Part shown: piece by piece, positions 7,784-43,760 of the stretch
How the letters are laid out: each line of letters begins with the position of its first letter
Position numbering within the stretch: position 1 is the first letter of the stretch
From: Candidatus Vallotiella sp. (ex Adelges kitamiensis)
Lineage (GTDB): Bacteria > Pseudomonadota > Gammaproteobacteria > Burkholderiales > Burkholderiaceae
Assembly (NCBI RefSeq): GCF_020342435.1
Contig: NZ_CP080504.1
Coordinates: 273,698-337,697 of the forward strand
Length of the DNA stretch: 64,000 nt
Reading direction: 5' to 3'
Position numbers and translations under genes: made by a program
Notes under the pieces: model-generated
Seen by the model: the letters and a program-made list of their open reading frames with translations, nothing else
Database searches by the model: none
What the model was told of the DNA's origin: nothing

Positions 7784-9046
7784 TTATAAGTCGCTCTTAA
7801 GAAATAATGACTGTAGGTCGTTTAAAAAACGCTGCCCGAGCGGGGTTGGCGCGATATTCATATAATCTCTATAAAGTAATCCGCGGAGTTCGGCTTCCGC
7901 AAGAGCTGGCTCAATTAACGTCATTGCTAGCCCAGTCCGCTCGATAAATCGATATGCCGGAAAGCCCTCAGTCAGTCGCAGCGCATTCAGCATAAATTCG
8001 AATGGTAGATCAAGCTCACTAATTTCATGTTGTTCCTGAATAGGTATTTCTAAGGCAGTTTGTGATAAATATCTGATAGGGTGTTTATAACGTATCTGTC
8101 GTACTATTTTTTCCGGAAAAGACAATTTTGAATGCGCGCCTGCGCCAATGCCCAAGTAGTCGCTAAATTGCCAATAGTTTAAATTGTGGCGGCTTTTCCG
8201 ATGTTCCTTAGCATACGATGATACTTCATAGTGCTGATAGCCAGCCTCACGCATACGTATATGGATCCAATCCTGCATGTCAGCTGACGTATCGTGGTCA
8301 GGCAGCACAGGTGGATATTTGTAGAAATAGATATTAGGCTCAAGTGTGAGGTGATATAACGATAAGTGGGGCGGGGAAAATGATAGTGCAGTTTCTATAT
8401 CTTCGCAGCATTGTGCGAGCGTTTGATGCGGCAATGCAAACATTAAATCTAGATTAAAGTTATCAAAATTTAAACACGCAATTTCTACTGCGCGCCGGCA
8501 TTGGGCCGAATTATGAGTGCGGCCCAATGCTCTCAAGTGAGAGTCATTGAAGCTCTGAATGCCAATCGAAAGTCGATTAACACCACTATTACGAAAACTT
8601 GCAAACTTAGAAGCTTCAAACGTGCCGGGATTTGATTCAAGCGTGATTTCTGTATCTACATCTATCAATAGTAGAGTGCGTAGGTCCGATAACAGTCGGT
8701 CAATCGCTTGTTCCGAGAGGAGACTTGGAGTCCCTCCACCAATAAACACGGTATGAACCGGCCGTCCCCAGATCAGTGGCAACGCCGCTTCTAAGTCAGC
8801 ACGTAGCGCGTTTATATACTCGATTTCAGGAAAGTGTGTATTTTCTAGGGTACGTGCGAGTGCATGCGAATTGAAGTCGCAGTATGGGCACTTTCGTATA
8901 CACCATGGAAAATGTACATATAGGGACAGCGGGGGTGGAGTAGTAAGCCGAATACGTCCTGGTGCTCTACATGTTGTAGATAGCGCTTCGATTAATCTCG
9001 CTGAATTATTATTTTCAAACGGTGTCGGGCGTTCGTATTTTACCAT
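7784..9046 (-). CDS. hemW: HemW, radical-SAM heme chaperone
   Basis: HemW (often mislabelled HemN-like coproporphyrinogen oxidase) binds heme and an iron-sulfur cluster and is thought to insert heme into membrane proteins such as cytochromes. The radical-SAM cluster cysteines C49, C53 and C56 sit in WCIRKCPYCDFNSH, followed by the SAM-binding GGGTPSLL. The length (420 residues) is somewhat longer than E. coli HemW because of a 35-40 residue N-terminal extension that I believe is common in Burkholderiaceae. The start overlaps the rdgB stop by seven bases (ATGGTAA), indicating translational coupling. With hemF decayed elsewhere in this window, it should not be read as a replacement oxidase. Confidence 0.92.
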   Translation of the reverse strand: MVKYERPTPFENNNSARLIEALSTTCRAPGRIRLTTPPPLSLYVHFPWCIRKCPYCDFNSHALARTLENTHFPEIEYINALRADLEAALPLIWGRPVHTVFIGGGTPSLLSEQAIDRLLSDLRTLLLIDVDTEITLESNPGTFEASKFASFRNSGVNRLSIGIQSFNDSHLRALGRTHNSAQCRRAVEIACLNFDNFNLDLMFALPHQTLAQCCEDIETALSFSPPHLSLYHLTLEPNIYFYKYPPVLPDHDTSADMQDWIHIRMREAGYQHYEVSSYAKEHRKSRHNLNYWQFSDYLGIGAGAHSKLSFPEKIVRQIRYKHPIRYLSQTALEIPIQEQHEISELDLPFEFMLNALRLTEGFPAYRFIERTGLAMTLIEPALAEAELRGLLYRDYMNIAPTPLGQRFLNDLQSLFLKSDL

Positions 9047-9660: not shown

Positions 9661-10352
9661 ACCCACGGTACTGTTTGGGGGAGACCGATGAATTGCATGA
9701 TGCCTGATTCTGCAATATCGAGTGGTGTATTAATCTCATGTTGCTGAGTGGTTTGCCTTCGGCTGTGCCCTGTATTTCGATAAAGCGGGGACTACCCCTC
9801 TGTTATCACGATATTTTCATAGTATAAATTAAGCACCGGTGTCGCACTGAAGATACCTGCTGATATTAGGCGATACGATTAATTGGCATCGTTGCAATAC
9901 TTTCCATGCGCTGGTAGCATACTTATCTCATTACGTGGGACGAAAATGCGCAAGCGAGAGTTGCACAACGTGTACAACCATCAGTTTAGACAACATCGCA
10001 GTCGACGTGCATCGTGCGCACACCCAATTTTACAAGTTAAACATTATGTATAGTGCACGCTCGATAAATCTCTTGATTTCTTGAGTGCGACTGCTCTGTT
10101 TTCCACTTATTGCCTCACACTTATTTCGTATATGTATCGTGCGGTTGGCATGCCGCACTCAGCAGTAAGCCGGCTACGGCTGAGATCTCACAGGAATTTG
10201 GATACTTTCTTAGTATACTAGCAGTGCTAGGTTAATTGTGCATCGCCATTCAATTAATACAAATATTCAGTATGATCTATGTAGTGTCACGCAAACACAT
10301 ATCTGGGGAGAATTAACACATGGTTACTGTGCCGCGGATTAGAAACTTTCAT
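9657..10352 (-). pseudogene. rph: Decayed RNase PH gene
   Basis: RNase PH trims tRNA 3' ends. On the minus strand the family can be followed from start to stop through several frames: LTAECGMP (normally VTAEYGMLP), GKQSSRTQEIKRFIERAL (normally GKQSGRTQEIQRLIGRSL), LGVRTMHVDCDVV (normally LGERTIQVDCDVL), TPVLNLYYEN, RFIEIQGTAEG (normally FVEVQGTAEG) and a tail LDIAESGIMQFIGL. Stop codons and at least three frame shifts interrupt it. Its 696 bases compare with about 740 for an intact gene, so decay went mainly by substitution and small indels. Its stop still overlaps the rdgB ATG. Confidence 0.93.
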
Positions 10353-10536
10353 ATCTAGTTAGAAAGTATGTATGGCTTCTAAGCTAACGTAGCCAACACG
10401 AAAACTACATCTTAACGATAAATTCAGATTGCTTTATTGCATAAACTTATCTCGTTATCGATTTTTAGCACTAAAGCACAAGTAGGCATTTAGTGCGATA
10501 ATAACTCTTTAACAAAAATTGTCGTGAGATGCAACA

Positions 10537-11478
10537 ATGATCTGCAGCATGACAGGCTATGCGAGTGTAACGCAAGAACTACTCGTCGATGGAATGCTTG
10601 AGGTCGGTAGTAGTGCCTATACCGCTAGCGTATCAGTCGAGTTACGTACTGTAAATTCTCGGTTTCTCGACTTCAATTTCAGAATACCCGAAGAAGTTCG
10701 AGCATGCGAAATAGCCTTGCGCAAAATGATAATGAACCGCCTCTCGCGAGGCAAGATCGATATCTACATTAACGTACAGAACAGCAAGCCAGTCGCGATG
10801 ATCGAGTCTCTAGATCGCAATACGCTATTACAACTAGCAGCACTGGAGTGTGCTGTGCTTGATGTGTTTCCCAAAGCGAGTAGCCTGCACATTGGTGAAA
10901 TCTTGCGTTGGCCTGGCGTCATTTCTGATAGACCACTATCAACAACATTGCTGCACGATACGATACTATCCTGTAGTAAAAAAGCTCTCAATGAGCTCAT
11001 TAGTTCTCGTAGACGAGAGGGAGAGCAATTAGCTACAATTCTATTGGCTAATATAACCGAAATGGAAGTGATGGTTAGTCGTATTACGCCATTAGTGCCC
11101 GAGCTAGTCACACGTCATCAAAACAAGATTATTGAGCGATTGAAAACAGCACTGAGTATGGCGATGTCGGATAGTTCCCAGAAACTCGTCTTGCATGAGG
11201 AAATTATCGAACGGATCCGACAAGAAGTCACTATGTACAGCATTCGTATCGATATCGCTGAGGAGCTGTCTCGGTTAGGTATGCATTTAGCTGAGACTCG
11301 CTATATGATTACAAAGGGCGGCCAGCTTGGAAAGAAACTTGATTTTATGATGCAAGAACTCAACAGGGAAGCGAATACTCTTGGCTCTAAGGCTGCGACT
11401 AAAGAATTGGCCGATGCATCTATGATGCTGAAACTATTAATTGAGCAGATGCGTGAACAGATCCAAAATTTGGAATAG
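10537..11478 (+). CDS. yicC: YicC/YloC-family endoribonuclease
   Basis: YicC-family proteins are stress-linked endoribonucleases found next to gmk in many bacteria. The start MICSMTGYASV is the family N-terminus, followed by VELRTVNSRFLDFNFRIPEE (YicC N domain) and the C-terminal DUF1732 part ending LGSKAATKELADASMMLKLL, in 313 residues. It is the first gene of a yicC-gmk-rpoZ run and the stop is nine bases before gmk. In Burkholderia a phosphatase and kinase pair usually precedes it; those are gone, leaving about 180 bases before the rph remnant. Confidence 0.9.
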   Translation: MICSMTGYASVTQELLVDGMLEVGSSAYTASVSVELRTVNSRFLDFNFRIPEEVRACEIALRKMIMNRLSRGKIDIYINVQNSKPVAMIESLDRNTLLQLAALECAVLDVFPKASSLHIGEILRWPGVISDRPLSTTLLHDTILSCSKKALNELISSRRREGEQLATILLANITEMEVMVSRITPLVPELVTRHQNKIIERLKTALSMAMSDSSQKLVLHEEIIERIRQEVTMYSIRIDIAEELSRLGMHLAETRYMITKGGQLGKKLDFMMQELNREANTLGSKAATKELADASMMLKLLIEQMREQIQNLE

Positions 11479-11487
11479 TCTGTCGCA

Positions 11488-12141
11488 ATGACAAATAATC
11501 AAAATTTTTACGCTAGAGCATATCCGGGTAATCTGTTTATGGTAGTTGCACCATCTGGTGCGGGTAAGTCGACACTAATCAGTGCGCTATTAGCTTGCGA
11601 CTCTCTGATCCGGATGTCCGTGTCGTACACTACGCGACCGCCGCGGCTGAATGAAGAAAATAATGTGCAGTACCATTTTATCTCAGTATCTGATTTCCAG
11701 GAACTCTACGCCCAGGATAAGTTTCTTGAGAGTGCTGTGGTCCATGGTCATTACTATGGTACATCGCGCGCATGGATTGAAGAACAAATGGAGAACGAGG
11801 TAGATATACTGCTTGAAATCGATTGGCAAGGCGCACAGCAAGTGCGTAAGAAGTTCCGAAATGCGGTCGGTATCTTTATACTGCCCCCGTCGCTCGATGC
11901 ACTAAGGATGCGTTTACATAAGCGAGGGCAAGACGAGCAGAACGTGATCGCCGATCGGCTATTGACCGCTCGTCGTGAAATATCTCATGCACCTGAATTC
12001 GAATACGTCTTAATCAACGAGACTTTCGATCATGCGTTGACTGAAATGCAGAGTATAGTCACCTCAAGACGTCTGTGTTTCTTATCACAGCGCGCACGCC
12101 ACGAAAATCTATTCGTCGAATTAGGTATTCACTCACCGTAA
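11488..12141 (+). CDS. gmk: Guanylate kinase
   Basis: Phosphorylates GMP to GDP using ATP, an essential step of guanine nucleotide synthesis. The P-loop APSGAGKST lies at residues 21-29 and the GMP-binding stretch [13 protein letters not shown] near 44-56, followed by [15 protein letters not shown] and the lid region [12 protein letters not shown]. At 217 residues it has normal length. It is tightly spaced after yicC and followed by rpoZ, the order usual in Proteobacteria. Confidence 0.96.
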
Positions 12142-12171
12142 ATAGATTTATAAATGATAAAGGATCTTAAT

Positions 12172-12375
12172 ATGGCTCGCATTACAGTCGAAGACTGCTT
12201 GAAACACATTTCGAACCGATTCGAGCTTGCGCTCGCAGCAACGTATCGGGCACGCCAACTCGCGCAGGGACACACACCGCAAATCGAAAGCAAGGATAAG
12301 CCTACAGTACTTGCTCTTCGAGAGATTGCTGGGGAAAAAGTTGGCATCGAGATGTTAAAAAAAGTTCCGATTTAA
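12172..12375 (+). CDS. rpoZ: RNA polymerase omega subunit
   Basis: Small subunit that helps assemble beta-prime into RNA polymerase and forms part of a ppGpp site in E. coli. I place the start at the ATG giving [20 protein letters not shown], the family N-terminus, rather than six codons upstream; this gives 67 residues, the normal betaproteobacterial length, ending with GVEMLKK-like [11 protein letters not shown] site AAAGGATC lies upstream. The downstream spoT, its normal partner, is a remnant. Confidence 0.96.
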
Positions 12376-12569
12376 TCGGTATACATGCTATGCCTGTTTG
12401 CACAGCAGTAGTCCTGGAGGGCATAAGTAAGCTCGCAATTTCTGTGAAACTCCGATGTAGTTTATAGCGCGATCTCAGCTAATGTATCTACGATGTACCG
12501 TCCGTCCTCTATAGAGCTAATCTAAGTTATATCGCGAGCCCGTGTAGGTGTTGCAGGAAAAGGGGTCAG

Positions 12570-13960
12570 TGCAGCGATAGCTATACGCGAGTATATCAAT
12601 ACGGTGCTTGAACAGTTATATCAATCCAATTAATACATCTGAGTAGTTGCATAAGTACAATGTTATTCGCTTTGAAAGCTGACTAAAGAGCTATAAAATA
12701 AAGAACCAAGCATTACAAAAACAGATCTAGCTGAGCGTTTCTAACTAAAATAGTCGAACTAGTCGACTGCTATCTCAGTTGGATAAGATAGAGTTCCGAA
12801 ACCGCGAGGAGGCGCAGGTAGAAAATTTCAGAGAGATCCTGCTAGCGATGGCGCGGGACATGCGCGTTATTCTAATTAAGCTTTCTGACCAGCGGTATAA
12901 TTGCCTACCTGGGTACAGTGCTACTGGAGAAATATCGGTAGGTAATGCGCGAGATAATTGATATTTATGAACTGATTACGCATCGTCTCGGACTCAACAT
13001 ATGTATTGTGAGCTACAGGAGCCAACTCTCGAGAATTTAAGTCTTTACCCAATTCTATAATCCTAGAAAAGCTTTAAGTGTCAATCAGCTGGAAATAATC
13101 AGAACAATTCTAGAGAGCCAATAATATTCTTTAGCTAACGCCAACGCTCTGCCGACATGATGGGGCATGAAAGACGATTTACTGTATTTATCGAAAGATG
13201 TGTGATTAAGCTGTTATCGTTTTCTCGGGTGCTTGACGCGTACGGTTTTCAAGTAGTTGTTAGTACTCTAATAAAGTGCTACATGATAGTTAATGCGTTA
13301 TATTAAGTACCTAAGCCAATGCTAGAGAAGTTTAGGGATTAAATAGCAATTTCGAAGGCCGATGGATTGGATCCCAGTATTTCATACTACACCAGCCAGC
13401 CTATTCAGTATGATAGTCGAGTTCTAAATTCAATGCTTAAGATGCATGAGATCGCTAAAGTAGACGATGTAGAACTTAGATAGATAAGCATGCATATAGA
13501 CTACAACATCCAAAAGTAGCCCCCTGAGGGGGCATCAAATCGCTGTTTAAAATCAGATCGGGGGCAAGCGACTCTAGCGAGCTCCTCGAGCACCTAAAGA
13601 TAGATTTATCTTTAGGTGCAGTGTACGTTTTCATACCAAATCCAACTTGACTAGAGCTTATATGAATCAGACCCAGCACATTCGACGATTTGTCATTTCT
13701 TAAAGATGAAATGCTTAAATAAGTCGGTGAAACTTAGATAGCATCTAATGGAGCAACTGTTAAGTCTTATAGATTATCGTGCGCTGAAGTTAAGATGGAG
13801 GTCTAGAATAAAATTGTATACCAGCATAGAGATTTTGAGAGAACTTAGTTTCTAGGACGCTGTCCGACGCTATTAGCGGATACTTCTATGGATTATAGGC
13901 ACTATTATCTTGCGGTCATATAGATCAACGCATCATCGACGTCATACCGGGAGCTGTGTT
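12570..13960 (+). pseudogene. spoT: Decayed spoT (ppGpp synthetase/hydrolase)
   Basis: The bifunctional RelA/SpoT protein makes and degrades ppGpp. Ordered fragments remain on the plus strand: REYINTVLEQL near 12586 (N-terminus), VELVD then LDKIEFRNREEAQVENFRE and ILLAMARDMRVILIKLSDQ near 12780-12890, IYELITHRLGLN, then YGFQVVVSTLIKCYM and KPMLEKFRD-stop-IAISKADG of the synthetase domain near 13240-13370, SSELLEHLKIDLSLGAVYVF of the TGS entry near 13575-13630, and a faint CRPIPG-like trace near 13940. Stops and frame shifts are frequent. Sequence up to about 14270 probably belongs to the same gene but is unreadable. It lies directly after rpoZ, the usual place. Confidence 0.93.
13590..13619. 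repeat. Perfect inverted repeat, 13-base arms, 4-base loop, inside the spoT remnant
   Basis: Arms GCACCTAAAGATA and TATCTTTAGGTGC flank GATT. The left arm encodes the conserved HLKI of spoT; the right arm replaces the conserved FPDA-coding bases with SLGA. No T-run follows. Confidence 0.85.
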
Positions 13961-14278
13961 AGTGTCATATAGAGCTGTCATAGACAGGATATTTATTCAA
14001 TGTAGTAGTCAAAGACAGCCAAAACATGTGGCGTTTTTCTTGGGCAGCCGTTAATAATATTGCAGTGGCCGATACAAGTATAAGGATCTAAACAAAGAAT
14101 TAGTAGCGTTGCGTTTCCTAATTCAGATTAGTAACTAAGTCAATTTGATAAATGGAACTAGCGTACTCTAGCCAATCTCAATATGCTTCGAATAGATTAA
14201 GCGGAAGTTAACTCAGATGGCAGTTGAACCCGTATTAGTCGTTAGAAATAGCCACTGATTAGAAGGCTGTTGAAAATA

Positions 14279-14355
14279 TGGCGCGGCTGGCAGGATTTGA
14301 ACCCACGACCCCTTGGTTCGTAGCCAAGTACTCTATCCAACTGAGCTACAGCCGC
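14279..14355 (-). tRNA. tRNA-Arg (anticodon ACG)
   Basis: Acceptor arms GCGGCTG and CAGCCGC pair fully, the D-arm is GCTCAGTTGGATAGAGT, and the anticodon stem CTTGG/CCAAG encloses the loop CTACGAA. CCA is encoded. The ACG anticodon (A34 to inosine) reads CGU, CGC and CGA. Confidence 0.97.
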
Positions 14356-15007
14356 GCGAAGAAATAGAATTATAGCAACTTTTCTAAAGAAAAGAGGGCC
14401 TAGTACGATTTTTTTACATACAGTTGTTCCGTAAAAAGGAAACTAATAACGACTAGCAGGCTCTCTCTTATTTATAAAAGAATATAAAATAAATTAAATA
14501 GTTTAAGTTAGTCGTACTATAAATAATAATATTTGATAGAAATTTATTATTCAACACGAAATAACTTTCGTACTTTAAAATGTTAGCTGATGTAAAAACT
14601 TTATAATATAAAAGGTTTCTATAATAATTATTTCTGAACTTTTTCTAGTTTTAGACTATTAATATTATATTTAGTAGTGTAAATATCAGTATATATTAAG
14701 AGCAACTCAATCGATTTTTATCGTGAATCTATATACCTAATTGTAGTTGTTTTATAGTCAAATTGACGTTTAGATGCAATGTTGTTTTTCTATATTTTGG
14801 GTTAAAAAATAACTCACTCTTGCACAATTTTGATTAAATATAGGCACTATACTAGCTTCGTAAAACAGCTTGTTTAACTTTGATTATTAACCCTGGGTGC
14901 TTATGTCGTCCCCTATGGCTGTTGTCCTTACTTACCGCTATACAATCATAATGTTTAGATATTGAATACATCGTATCTGTAGAGCTTTTTTAGAAATCAA
15001 TGCATTA
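14356..15007. other. Very AT-rich non-coding stretch between tRNA-Arg and nth
   Basis: About 650 bases with long A/T runs and no recognisable remnant; by eye it is richer in AT than the spoT remnant beside it. If the ancestor had a gene here it is beyond recognition. An AT-only inverted repeat (AATAATAA/TTATTATT) is present but carries little information. Confidence 0.55.
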
Positions 15008-15649
15008 TTAAGTGAAAACACACGTTTTACTCTTAAATTCGCAGAGTGTTTCAATTATACAATCCTGGCATTTAGGTATTCTCGCGCGGCATACGTATCG
15101 GCCATGCAAAATCAGCCAGTGGTGTGCACTGTACCGGAATTCGGCTGGTGTAAGCTTCTCTAGTGCTGCTTCTACTACCCGAACGTCCTTGCCGGGCGCT
15201 AGCTTAGTGCGGTTTGCGACACGGAAGATATGTGTATCGACAGCAATAGTTGGGTGTCCGAATACTATATTTAGTATAACGTTTGCTGTCTTTCGGCCTA
15301 CTCCCGGAAGAGCTTCAAGTGCTTCGCGATTAGAGGGCACTTCTCCCTGATGCTGGTCAAGTAACATTCTACACGTCGCGATTATATTCTTAGCCTTGAT
15401 TCGATATAGTCCAATCGTCTTAATATATTGCGCGACACCCCCCTCTCCAAGTACCAAAATAGCTTGTGGTGTATTAGCGATCGGAAACATTTTATACATT
15501 GCTTTATTAACAGAGGCGTCAGTTGCCTGAGCTGAAAGCATCACTGCGATTAGAAGTTCGAACGATGTTGTATACCTTAGCCCCATAGTCGGATGGGGGT
15601 TCAGGTTTCGTAGTGTTTCGTAGATTGCACGACGCTTTATAGCGTTCAT
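15008..15649 (-). CDS. nth: Endonuclease III (DNA glycosylase/AP lyase)
   Basis: Base-excision repair enzyme that removes oxidised pyrimidines and cuts the abasic site. The helix-hairpin-helix reads ALPGVGRKTANV with catalytic lysine K120, and the catalytic aspartate D138 lies in AVDTHIFRVANR. The four cysteines of the [4Fe-4S] cluster are present with standard spacing: C187, C194, C197 and C203. At 213 residues it is complete. The rsxB gene lies 28 bases upstream on the same strand, as in Burkholderia relatives. Confidence 0.96.
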   Translation of the reverse strand: MNAIKRRAIYETLRNLNPHPTMGLRYTTSFELLIAVMLSAQATDASVNKAMYKMFPIANTPQAILVLGEGGVAQYIKTIGLYRIKAKNIIATCRMLLDQHQGEVPSNREALEALPGVGRKTANVILNIVFGHPTIAVDTHIFRVANRTKLAPGKDVRVVEAALEKLTPAEFRYSAHHWLILHGRYVCRARIPKCQDCIIETLCEFKSKTCVFT

Positions 15650-15677
15650 GAAGATTCGTCAATTTTAATACTAAAGA

Positions 15678-16574
15678 TTATCCGGCATCGGGATCGGAGT
15701 TATTTCTACGCGGTTTGAGCAAGCATGATGGGTCCGACTGAACACGATTGTCTCTGGCCCAGTTTAAGCGCTGCTGCTGTGCTTTGAGTGCATCGATTTT
15801 TGATCGTGTAACTAGGCTCACGTCTGATGTGTTATGTAGCCTAATTTCTTGCGAAGTTTGTTCCTCTTTTTTCTTGCGAGCACGTGATACCGCCATTTCG
15901 ATAATGGCTTTTTTCTGTGCGTCAGTATAGTTTTTAGACAACGCTATTGGCCTTGCCTCTAGTGATCCGGCTGAAGTAGTAGAAAGTGGAGCTGTCGATT
16001 CTAATGTTGGCGGAATCTGCGTGAGAATTGCGCGACGGGTGGCTGCACGCTGCTTTGCCTTGTCACGCTCTTCCATGAGCCGTATATTTCGCTGCTCGTG
16101 ACGATGTCTAGATTCTAAGGCTTGCTGTGGAGACCATGCGTCCCATCCAGTATCAATGATAGTCACGGGAATCATTTTAATACAATTAACGGGGCACATA
16201 GAAACGCATAGGTCGCAGCCGGTACACCAATCTGCTAACACTGTGTGTAGCTGCTTTGGAGCACCGACAATGGCGTCAACTGGGCATGCTTTTATACATA
16301 GTGTACAGCCGATGCAGAGGTTTTCATTAATTACCGCCCGTGGGCGTGCTCGCTCAACGCCGTTAACTGGGTTGAGTGGGATAACTGGCTTGTTGAGCAA
16401 TGATGCCAGTCGGCTAATACCTTGCCACCCCCCGGGGGGGCACTGATTATAGCTTGCTGTACCGTTTGCAACGGCATTCGCATAAGGTCGGCATCCACTA
16501 TAGCCGCATTTAGTGCATTGGGTTTGAGGAAGTAGATCATTAATCTGATTAGCCAGCGACGGAGAGGCGGTCAC
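15678..16574 (-). CDS. rsxB: RnfB/RsxB-type ferredoxin protein
   Basis: Iron-sulfur electron carrier related to RnfB/RsxB of the Rnf/Rsx complex. The N-terminal Fe-S domain has C20, C23, C28 and C45 (LLPQTQCTKCGYSGC, QCPPGG), followed by two ferredoxin-type clusters with C87/C90/C93/C97 and C117/C120/C123/C127. The C-terminal third is basic and charged with low complexity, common in the betaproteobacterial form. No N-terminal membrane helix is present, and no other rnf/rsx gene is in the window. The best start is a GTG without a clear ribosome site. A C6-G7 block lies at 16428-16440 within the coding region. Confidence 0.88.
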   Translation of the reverse strand: MTASPSLANQINDLLPQTQCTKCGYSGCRPYANAVANGTASYNQCPPGGWQGISRLASLLNKPVIPLNPVNGVERARPRAVINENLCIGCTLCIKACPVDAIVGAPKQLHTVLADWCTGCDLCVSMCPVNCIKMIPVTIIDTGWDAWSPQQALESRHRHEQRNIRLMEERDKAKQRAATRRAILTQIPPTLESTAPLSTTSAGSLEARPIALSKNYTDAQKKAIIEMAVSRARKKKEEQTSQEIRLHNTSDVSLVTRSKIDALKAQQQRLNWARDNRVQSDPSCLLKPRRNNSDPDAG

Positions 16575-16597
16575 GGTATCGGAATTTGGGCAATTTT

Positions 16598-16619
16598 TAC
16601 CAAAATGTAGATTTTGGTA
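16598..16619. repeat. Perfect inverted repeat, 9-base arms, 4-base loop
   Basis: Arms TACCAAAAT and ATTTTGGTA flank GTAG, 24 bases upstream of the rsxB start. Because of this position it could in principle be an operator for rsxB, but similar repeats occur in unrelated non-coding DNA here. Confidence 0.7.
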
Positions 16620-17073
16620 GCGAAGTTAAAGTTGCGTAACGTAATCTAGCTACTTTTTGTACAAACTTTTGGGAGACAGTAGAGCATGCTACTTTCTCAA
16701 CTATCGTGCTTTTTACTAGAGATATAATACCTTATTAATACAGCTACTGTGCATAATCAGAACGCAAATTATCTCAAGTCTATAAAAACTGTGAAGATGG
16801 ATACAACATATTTTTCGAAGCTGCTATATAGCAATTAGCGAGTAACTGGATTATTAGGTCGGTCATACAGACTAAATTGTTCATTATATGGGGACTATAT
16901 AATGGATTTTATGCTACTTACTTCAGTAGATAAATAGTTGTTTAAACAGTACGAGAATAAGCGTCGACTGAGAGTATAGATGCAGAGAAAAGAGAACACC
17001 AGTAAATAGACTAGTACCTATAGAAATTTATTGTGAACTTATCTTCTTTATTATTTGGCGTTTCATATTAGAT

Positions 17074-17104
17074 AGTTCTCCTAGATTATTTCTCTAGGAG
17101 AACT
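17074..17104. repeat. Perfect inverted repeat, 12-base arms, 7-base loop
   Basis: Arms AGTTCTCCTAGA and TCTAGGAGAACT flank TTATTTC. No T-run follows on either strand, so an intrinsic terminator is unlikely. Confidence 0.8.
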
Positions 17105-17155
17105 GAACGAATAGATAATGATACGCCAGCACTGTACTAAGAAAGTAGTGTAATT

Positions 17156-17183
17156 CAGTACTTTTCTTTATAGAAAAGTACTG
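17156..17183. repeat. Perfect inverted repeat, 12-base arms, 4-base loop
   Basis: Arms CAGTACTTTTCT and AGAAAAGTACTG flank TTAT, about 50 bases from the preceding repeat. No adjoining gene or T-run explains it. Confidence 0.8.
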
Positions 17184-18299
17184 CTTGAACCCACGACTAT
17201 CATCATAAAAACAGTAATGCACTGTGCACGGTATCGTATTGCGTATGATTTAGGATCTAAAATCTAATGCGAATATCCCTGTAAGGAGCTTTGTATGCTT
17301 AAAATCTGTAGAAGCTTTCTGCTCTATGCCGGAATAGTTCTAAACAACATCGCATAGATGTACGTTGTTATTGATCAATTTCGCTGTGATCGGCACCAGT
17401 ATTCATTGATGCCAATATTCCGGCTTTCTCAGAATACTCTTACAAGAGCTTTATACTTCCTATAGTGACATAGTATGATTCTTAATCATGTCGCATGACC
17501 TAGGGTAGAGTTAAGACAGTTATCAGGCAGTAGCTGTCTTGCTCATTTTTCTTCACTCTAAAGAAGATATACCTGAATATTTATTAGCAAGATATGGAAA
17601 AATTCCTGAAGAAGGATATCGACTACCTAACCTGCAATGTAGTTCTAGCTAAAATTTATACGTACTTCTACTAAGTGTTTCTTTATAGAAAAACGCGCGC
17701 GTATAAGCATGATAAATAACTTTTATGCAGACTATACTTTTCGTTACTGCTCGTGAGATAAAATGTCTACGTTCGCGTTATTTCTAGCGAAAACGCTGTA
17801 GAGAGATTACAGATATATCAGCTAAAGGTACCACTTGGATATCTGAAGCCGCGTGATGTTCTATCAGAACATAAATAAGATACCTGATGCCAATAAATAA
17901 GCGTCATTAGCTAGATCTGCCGCACTAACCGATGAAGTTGTCCCCAGAGATAGAATACGTTGCTTAGCAAGCTTCCAATGCTGAATAACTAGATAAGAGC
18001 ATTTTCTCTTTTAGGCTAATATTGATTTGTAGGAGAAATTCTACAAAAGACTAACAGTCTTAGCTACTTAATAGCTCTTTCACTAGGCATTGCGTTAGAT
18101 TATTTTTGAATAAAATTAAGCAAAGAGAGCAAGTGCTACGATGCCGAATCATGCTTGCAATAGTATAAACCAAGACCAAGTTTAATAGCTCAATATGAAT
18201 ACTATGCCAATTATTAGCTTTATCTGCGCACTAATATAATTGTCAATATTATATGTTCAGAAAATACCCTCAGCACAGAGATAAAGACTAATATAGTTG

Positions 18300-18313
18300 A
18301 ACCTAGCTAGGTT
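18300..18313. repeat. 14-base perfect palindrome
   Basis: AACCTAGCTAGGTT; a related 10-base palindrome AACCTAGGTT lies at 18418-18427. Both are upstream of rhlE and could be a repeated operator-like motif or chance. Confidence 0.55.
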
Positions 18314-18531
18314 TCCGAAGTATTCCACTGCACCGGTAAATTACCGAAAATTGCACAAAAACTCAGTTAACTCATACTAACCTACACTCTGTGTAGCTAG
18401 GCTTGTTTTAAGGGGCTAACCTAGGTTGCTGCCGGAGGATTCTGCATAATATATGACCTTATCAGATCAAAACTAAGTTCATAAGGTGCTATAATTTATA
18501 TTACTCTAGGCATTTCATCGAAGGCAGCCGC

Positions 18532-29177: not shown

Positions 29178-29846
29178 TTAGGTTTGATAAAGATGGTGTC
29201 GATGAATATATTTCCATACCACGTCTGGCACATTAGAAATCTCCCTGGAGAAGTTACATTCCCGTTCGCGTATCGACTGGCGTATATCTGTTGCCGAGAT
29301 ATCTAGAGACAGTGTTGTATCACGAAAGACATAGCCGTGGGTTGTTGAACGTAGCGTGTCAGCCGACACGCTACGTTGCCAGATTTCATTAAGCACTGTT
29401 GCGTCCGCCTGAGATAGGTCAAAACCAGGACGCGTTGCAATACCAATATGGGCAAATTCAAATAATCTCCGCCAGTTTTTCCAGGTGTGCAGCCGAAGCA
29501 ATTGATCGGCCCCAATCAATAGTGTTAATGATGCCGAGGTACCGTGATACTTGCGCCATGCCGATAGCGTTTTAGTCGTATACGATGGACTGGAATGATA
29601 AATTTCATCGGTCGACACAGTCACTCGTGTAGTAGATAACATTCGTGCTGATGCCAAGCAAGTCATCGCGAGTCTATGCCGAGCAGCAGATACATCGCTC
29701 TTTTGCCACGGTTGCCCAGCTGGCAATAGCACAAGTTCAGTCAATCCAATGCATCGAGAAAACTGGCGTGCGAGTGCTAGGTGGCCAATATGGATTGGGT
29801 CGAACGTGCCACCCAGGATACCGATCCGCTTAGATAGAGGGGGCAT
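29178..29846 (-). CDS. nadD: Nicotinate-nucleotide adenylyltransferase
   Basis: Adenylates nicotinate mononucleotide to deamido-NAD, the penultimate step of NAD synthesis. The nucleotidyltransferase signature GILGGTFDPIHIGHLALA (HIGH motif at residues 18-21) is near the start and the second motif ISATDIRQSIRE near residue 188. At 222 residues it has normal length. It is the downstream survivor of the ancestral purD-hemF-nadD order; hemF upstream is decayed. Confidence 0.95.
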   Translation of the reverse strand: MPPLSKRIGILGGTFDPIHIGHLALARQFSRCIGLTELVLLPAGQPWQKSDVSAARHRLAMTCLASARMLSTTRVTVSTDEIYHSSPSYTTKTLSAWRKYHGTSASLTLLIGADQLLRLHTWKNWRRLFEFAHIGIATRPGFDLSQADATVLNEIWQRSVSADTLRSTTHGYVFRDTTLSLDISATDIRQSIRERECNFSREISNVPDVVWKYIHRHHLYQT

Positions 29847-43723: not shown

Positions 43724-43760
43724 TGCCTGCATCAGGAAATCTGATGCAGGCATTTTATTT
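43724..43760 (+). terminator. Intrinsic terminator between rpsO and pnp
   Basis: A perfect 12-base stem TGCCTGCATCAG/CTGATGCAGGCA with loop GAAAT is followed by TTTTATTT, starting 20 bases after the rpsO stop. Such hairpins between rpsO and pnp commonly allow partial read-through. Confidence 0.88.

Follow-up and report, generated by a model that had tools for sequence, protein, structure and literature searches.

How does a perfect palindrome come to lie in the middle of a gene that has died? The question is raised by positions 13590-13619 of a 64-kb stretch of DNA (the window, by which we mean the whole stretch analyzed) from a Burkholderiaceae genome of 1,172,651 bases in two contigs, probably that of an insect symbiont of the Vallotia group. 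Vallotia is a symbiont of adelgids (PMC8692619), V. tarda being the earlier-studied larch species (PMC8857208), and it is placed under Mycetohabitans by GTDB (PMC12696581). The locus has the following parts.

12154-12375, + strand: rpoZ (TIGR00690, above cut-off), upstream; used as locus marker in relatives
12770-14153, + strand: remnant of the spoT pseudogene, in tblastn pieces with stops, frame changes, and gaps
13590-13602, + strand: left arm of the hairpin, GCACCTAAAGATA, read as (E)HLKI in the old spoT frame
13603-13606, + strand: loop, GATT
13607-13619, + strand: right arm of the hairpin, TATCTTTAGGTGC, where intact relatives encode LFP(D/A)A
14279-14355, - strand: tRNA-Arg (anticodon acg), downstream; used to locate the locus in relatives

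The hairpin and its locus

The relatives carry an intact spoT gene at the equivalent place, between gmk-rpoZ and the tRNA-Arg gene. The intact protein of one of them, G003, which belongs to the RelA/SpoT family (TIGR00691, above cut-off), was used as a tblastn query and aligned to two pieces, 12770-13459 and 13534-13638, interrupted by stops, frame changes, and gaps; past 13638 the remnant was matched only weakly (E 0.02-0.03). Also inside the remnant, at 13519-13533, lies a GC-rich hairpin, GCCCCCTCAGGGGGC, followed by TACTTTTGGA on the minus strand, which is terminator-like by consensus only.

The initial annotation had described a perfect 13-base hairpin with a GATT loop in the spoT remnant, and this description was confirmed. 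All 13 of 13 pairs form without a mismatch across a loop of 4 bases, one arm being the exact reverse complement of the other, and the 30-mer GCACCTAAAGATA-GATT-TATCTTTAGGTGC has a single exact copy in the window and turned up in none of 100 shuffles. A wider search of genome contigs, which may exclude its own genome, gave no exact match to the hairpin. Five inverted repeats were reported within 12370-14290 (distance up to 200 bases), and the one at 13590-13619 was the only perfect one. It is also among the two longest perfect inverted repeats of the window (loops of 3-30), in which six perfect repeats with arms of at least 12 were observed versus 0.2 expected from 40 shuffles. Folded as single-stranded DNA, the surroundings of the hairpin reached -15.2 kcal/mol versus -3.61 for shuffles (standard deviation 1.76, z -6.6).

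Base changes relative to the spoT genes of relatives

The genus sample comprised eight genomes, four of about 1.1-1.2 Mb (G000, which is the genome of the window, G002, G004, and G005, called reduced below; the G002 chromosome has 1,123,864 bases) and four others of 3.3-3.8 Mb (called large). Intact spoT genes were available from eight relatives, namely five congeners and three family members serving as outgroups. In a gmk-rpoZ tree G000, G002, and G004 grouped together (support 1.0) with G005 next outside (0.97), while the position of the outgroup G015 was weak (0.34), so that the genus is not rooted by it. From the rpoZ match to the tRNA match G004 has only about 1.05 kb (C1:355045-356093) versus about 1.9 kb in G000 and G002, and thus much of its spoT remnant is gone.

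The site of the hairpin reads LLEHLKIDLSLGAVYVF versus FLEHVKIDLFP(D/A)AVYVF in all eight intact relatives, which bears out the earlier statement that relatives have FPDA-type residues at the right arm while the reading on both sides still matches. The corresponding arms of these relatives form 4-7 of 13 pairs, and in none of the eight is the palindrome perfect. About five right-arm changes, all favoring pairing, had been proposed. Compared with G003, G006, and G007, 6 of the 13 bases differ (13608, 13610, 13612, 13613, 13616, and 13617), all six changes being transitions and each gaining a pair; the difference amounts to 5/13 from G001 and to 7/13 from each of the other four intact genes. Five of the right-arm states are absent from every intact relative, in fair agreement with the number proposed, and the sixth, T at 13617, occurs in the three outgroups and in G001. 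We also looked for the right-arm bases in relatives whose spoT is intact, and the whole arm was present in none of the eight, the base at 13617 alone being shared by 4/8.

The left arm had been described as coding HLKI at the conserved place. It does encode HLKI, but relative to G003, G006, and G007 it differs at 3 of 13 bases (13594, 13596, and 13602), so it is not simply the ancestral sequence, and the changes are not confined to one arm. The A at 13596 occurs in G005 as well, and two left-arm states are absent from every intact relative. With G003 as the reference, the original arms form 6/13 pairs, the derived left arm with the old right one 7, the old left arm with the derived right one 10, and the present arms 13. 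Four of the nine states, three in the right arm (13608, 13612, and 13617) and one in the left (13602), also occur in the G002 pseudogene, and part of the changes may therefore predate the event that completed the hairpin. If the states common to G000 and G002 are ancestral, a 10-of-13 quasipalindrome pre-existed, leaving three changes in the right arm and two in the left to be accounted for; the common states could instead be parallel changes. The left-arm changes are allowed to have come before the event, which is compatible with a template switch, and we do not claim a single clean one-arm event.

The proposal that the changes form one cluster was not borne out, the density in the right arm (6/13) being not significantly different from that in the aligned flanks (22/75; Fisher p=0.19). 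The non-random aspect of the site is its complete pairing rather than the clustering of changes. Aligning the segment with its closest relatives thus gave a divided answer: the right arm is lacking in the intact genes, while no significant cluster emerged and some states recur in G002. The hairpin may be newly made, as described, but the nearest of the genus genomes, about 77% identical to G000 across gmk-rpoZ, are too distant to date the change.

Probability of complete pairing at the site

We calculated how often full pairing would be reached by independent substitution, using a substitution matrix measured on the remnant. The probability was 1.8e-7 from the G003 state and 4e-5 to 3e-6 from a G002-informed ancestral state. 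Among 20,000 simulated substituted copies of the whole gene, 3 hairpins (arm of at least 13, loop 3-8) appeared, about 1.5e-4 per copy. Since the feature was chosen among all those of a 64-kb window, this site-level improbability is by itself suggestive, not decisive. The kind of change points the other way: six transitions out of six have a probability of 0.013 under point mutation (measured transition share 0.49) and of about 0.0014 if a template deals the changes randomly, so the transition-only pattern favors point mutation three- to tenfold, depending on the number of changes in the event.

Perfect inverted repeats in reduced and large genomes

Perfect inverted repeats (arm of at least 12, loop 3-30) were then counted in genome samples, with dinucleotide shuffling as the null and crude ORF calls. 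A first census (G000, G002, and G003) used ORFs of at least 150 aa and a T-tail of 5 of 8 T; a second used ORFs of at least 100 aa and a T-tail of 4 of 8 T, with low-complexity arms removed beforehand. The G000 sample of 464 kb (400 kb plus the window) held 34 repeats versus 1.3 in shuffles. Outside ORFs of at least 150 aa and free of a T-tail there were 18 versus 0.3 expected outside ORFs, or 14 versus 0.1 with arms of at least 13, and the longest repeat of this sample had 28 bp. By the census, the odds are roughly 100 to 1 that a hairpin as large as the one in spoT, outside ORFs and free of a T-tail, did not arise by chance. G002 (400 kb) gave 45 versus 1.3 in all and 29 versus 0.3 outside ORFs without a T-tail, and the second census found 62 repeats in G004 and 40 in G005 (400 kb each). 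Mirror repeats of equal size, which served as a composition control, numbered 0, 1, 4, and 0 in G000, G002, G004, and G005, respectively; close direct repeats, the second control, numbered 5, 0, 3, and 9 in the same genomes and 25 in G003.

Among the outside-ORF repeats, those with a T-tail made up 6/24 in G000, 13/33 in G002, 25/46 in G004, and 21/33 in G005. Such repeats, over half of the set in G004 and G005, may be terminators, which would therefore contribute to the excess in these two genomes. Repeats both T-tail-free and more than 80 bases from a stop accounted for 17/24 of the outside-ORF set in G000 and 20/33 in G002. The large congener G003 had 17 repeats versus 2.7 expected in 400 kb, none of at least 18 bp. 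In 200-kb samples G024 had 5, all T-tailed or close to a stop, and G016, a reduced member of the family, had 15. The density of far-from-stop, T-tail-free repeats per kb outside ORFs was about 0.12 in G000, 0.15 in G002, 0.12 in G004, and 0.07 in G005, as compared with 0.12 in G016 (4 repeats in 33 kb outside ORFs), 0.04 in G003 (2 repeats), and 0 in G024. The similar density in G016 means that the excess is not special to the genus, and the simplest reading of the census is a general process that becomes visible where DNA is free to decay.

Two further perfect repeats of the window lie outside ORFs of at least 100 aa, in a 2-kb stretch (16575-18531) for which no match was found in 7 congeners at E<=0.001.

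17074-17104, no strand assigned: perfect 12-bp hairpin, loop 7, no T-tail
17156-17183, no strand assigned: perfect 12-bp hairpin, loop 4, no T-tail, 51 bases past the preceding one

Repeats inside coding genes

The four reduced genomes held 44 repeats inside ORFs, of which 33 could be aligned (orthologue of more than 50% identity covering the site) and 11 were dropped. The gene names used here (gyrA, fumarase, ispA, leuC, hemW, rpoZ, gmk, adenylyltransferase) rest on one family-assignment search. For most of the 33 both arms differ from the nearest orthologues, so that a single event is unreadable. Two coding repeats of the window are the following.

8498-8530, no strand assigned: 11-bp perfect inverted repeat, loop 11, inside hemW; G002 has a 14-bp perfect repeat at the same place
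29348-29377, no strand assigned: perfect 13-bp hairpin, loop 4, in a 251-aa ORF on the - strand (nicotinate-nucleotide adenylyltransferase); the site forms 10/13 pairs in G002 and 9/13 in G004

A repeat in gyrA of G005 (L125:15305-15340) forms 16/16 pairs versus 7-10/16 in the seven other congeners, the differences from these amounting to 7-8 in one arm and to 1-3 in the opposite one. Because the seven congeners are imperfect and the differences fall mostly on one arm, the repeat is derived in G005, where HELLADIDKETV of G003 reads HGLLIDIDKETV, and it alters two residues of gyrase subunit A within a conserved stretch. In ispA (farnesyl diphosphate synthase) G002 and G004 have 21, G000 18, and G005 17 of 21 pairs, as compared with 8-11/21 in the large genomes, the differences lying mostly in one arm; the 7/21 pairs of the family member G016 suggest that this repeat, too, is derived.

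A class I fumarase-type gene (L058:18443-18490 in G000) forms 21-22/22 pairs in the four reduced genomes and 15-17/22 in the large ones. The two groups differ on both arms, and the change may have run in either direction. Between G000 and G002 four positions differ on each arm and both repeats are perfect, that is, the changes match, and matching arm changes were likewise seen in leuC among G000, G002, and G004. The pairing in these two genes could be kept by copying between the arms or by selection on RNA.

Origin of the hairpin

The hairpin at 13590-13619 was probably produced by template-switch perfecting of a quasipalindrome, and it is best explained as a mutational product, a scar in a dead gene, rather than a working element. 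Its chief competitor is that independent point mutations in a fast-decaying pseudogene completed the palindrome by chance. The six transitions among six right-arm changes speak for such a course, as do the comparably diverged flanks and the recurrence of several states in G002, G001, G005, or outgroups. Set against this are the simulated gene copies, so few of which gained such a hairpin, and the 14 T-tail-free hairpins outside ORFs in 464 kb where about 0.1 would be expected, and on balance we consider chance completion unlikely, though worth keeping in mind. A sequencing or assembly artefact, a fold-back chimera, was also considered, as chimeric by-products are reported from strand-displacement amplification (PMC9484634). 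Yet each of the four reduced genomes, separately assembled, shows the excess, the repeats in ispA and fumarase are present in several assemblies, and for the Vallotia assembly G002 closure by Illumina plus Nanopore reads is reported, at 323x (PMC8692619), so that we give an artefact very little credence.

Selection for a functional hairpin (a terminator, a small RNA, or a protein site) would agree with the stable fold (z -6.6) and with the terminator-like, T-tailed repeats that form part of the census. It is nevertheless highly improbable at this site, which is flanked by no T-run on either strand, is surrounded by the sequence of a dead gene, and has no hairpin counterpart in the intact genes or in G002; a terminator scan of 12370-14290 gave four other sites and not this one, and at the gathering threshold an Rfam search over 10000-18500 yielded tRNA alone. 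Least credible of all is an origin from a mobile or dispersed palindromic element (MITE or REP) of which a remnant is left. REPs are described as making many hairpins in some genomes (PMC3733652), but at E<=0.001 the 30-mer, single-copy in the window, matches only the site itself and its own complement in its own genome, and Vallotia is reported to have a single IS21 element that makes up 0.2% of its genome (PMC12696581). Moreover, 180 repeats (arm of at least 12) from the four reduced-genome samples contained only 4 pairs alike over at least 16 nt, three of them leuC or fumarase sites of different genomes and the fourth a T-tailed repeat near a stop at 43724-43752 of the window together with a G002 repeat. 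The terminator, RNA-family, and mobile-element readings of 13590-13619 were accordingly dropped for want of a T-run, of any Rfam hit other than tRNA, and of a second copy.

Under template switching, a weak inverted repeat would have been present or have arisen in the decaying spoT gene (4-7/13 pairs in intact relatives, or 10/13 should the bases common to G000 and G002 be ancestral). While the DNA was being replicated, the nascent strand would fold back on itself, and the polymerase would copy one arm using the other as template and then resume on the normal template, thereby replacing the remaining mismatches and leaving 13 perfect base pairs around a loop of 4 bases. One such event presumably completed the hairpin, with the left arm as template and the right arm rewritten, a direction suggested by the greater number of changes in the right arm. 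Lost selection in non-functional DNA probably helps the hairpin persist.

This reading is grounded in the hairpin itself, which all eight intact genes lack, in a degree of pairing that exceeds chance, and in the excess of such repeats across the clade in the DNA sampled; together with the G005 gyrA case, the census suggests that the process is active in the lineage. The template-switch origin put forward initially is thereby upheld in its main point, with many such hairpins present in G000 and its reduced relatives, and weakened in its particulars, namely the lack of significant clustering and the change in both arms. As few as three right-arm changes are left for the event once the shared states are removed. 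Three observations led us to lower the odds given by the census to a probable origin only: the transition-only pattern, the states shared with other genomes, and the fact that both arms changed. The bases at 13617 and 13596 that occur in intact genes, and the 4-7/13 pairing range, leave this estimate as it was, 13617 having been treated as old in the G002-informed calculation.

The spoT pseudogene of G002 has an inverted repeat of its own beside the place of the window hairpin, a perfect one of 24 bp with a loop of 7 (C1:637210-637264, reverse strand), whose right arm occupies the stretch that encodes PKSKIMALPRGAT in relatives. It represents a scar like the window hairpin, with longer arms.

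Relation to known systems

The perfecting of inverted repeats by template switching and the excess of inverted repeats in prokaryotes are both known already, and the spoT site is a further example. As reported for E. coli (the thyA hotspot and lacZ reporters), quasipalindrome-associated mutation makes imperfect inverted repeats perfect by intramolecular copying (PMC7202029). The spoT site is like that system in that an imperfect repeat becomes perfect or more so, and unlike it in that the E. coli events were selected and directly seen, whereas the spoT event is deduced from diverged relatives in non-functional DNA. In genes of Saccharomyces cerevisiae multinucleotide changes are described that equalize the arms of inverted repeats (PMC8604942), and the gyrA case of G005 is of this arm-homogenizing kind; the yeast strains are close enough for placement of the changes on branches, which the relatives at the spoT site are not. 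A single template switch has also been reported to create or complete an RNA stem, with compensatory changes arising in step (PMC8794818). The fumarase repeat suggests such in-step changes, although that report concerns rRNA, whereas nothing here points to a functional RNA. Finally, an excess of inverted repeats in prokaryotes was ascribed to template switching by Ladoukakis and Eyre-Walker, as reported in PMC4060949; it concerned repeats of 6-9 bp in coding DNA, whereas the arms here reach 28 bp and are more frequent outside ORFs than inside.

Among the matches listed for the open-access literature, judged by titles and the beginnings of abstracts, none treated the density of such repeats in decaying symbiont DNA or the gyrA case. 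The words inverted, palindrom, and hairpin are absent from the text of PMC8857208, and "inverted repeat" is absent from that of PMC12696581.

The consequence for the spoT site itself is small, and the point of interest is the density of such events in decaying symbiont DNA. Pseudogene-rich symbiont genomes record mutation under little selection, and in the decaying genome of G000 template-switch mutation seems unusually easy to see. If it is this frequent, it would explain clustered substitutions and perfect stem-loops that are otherwise taken for selected RNA structures or rapid adaptive change. We put forward, as a conjecture that we hold tentatively and do not yet favor, that fold-back template switching is a leading mutational force in reduced symbionts, one that makes long palindromes (up to 28 bp) in decayed DNA, rewrites residues of essential proteins (two in G005 gyrA), maintains full pairing in some coding palindromes (fumarase and leuC) as one arm is copied from the other again and again, and brings about compensatory change without selection on RNA, and that it has become visible through relaxed selection and perhaps a lack of SbcCD.

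Repair genes

We also asked which genes acting on hairpins are present. Exonuclease VII large subunit (PF02601), RecJ, and RecA were found without stops in all eight congeners, and loss of exonuclease VII or RecJ was therefore rejected as the cause of the excess. SbcD (TIGR00619) gave no match in either the reduced or the large congeners (0 of 8). Its apparent absence from the genus may contribute to the persistence of hairpins such as that in spoT, but a lack of SbcCD does not separate the reduced from the large congeners, and because the large G003 is also without SbcD and yet has no repeat of at least 18 bp in 400 kb, this absence alone does not explain the excess. If template switching is this frequent, one could also learn from it whether it is held back in nature by hairpin nucleases such as SbcCD. 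In the family the distribution of SbcD is patchy, with a match in 28 of 60 genomes, 9 of them above the cut-off.
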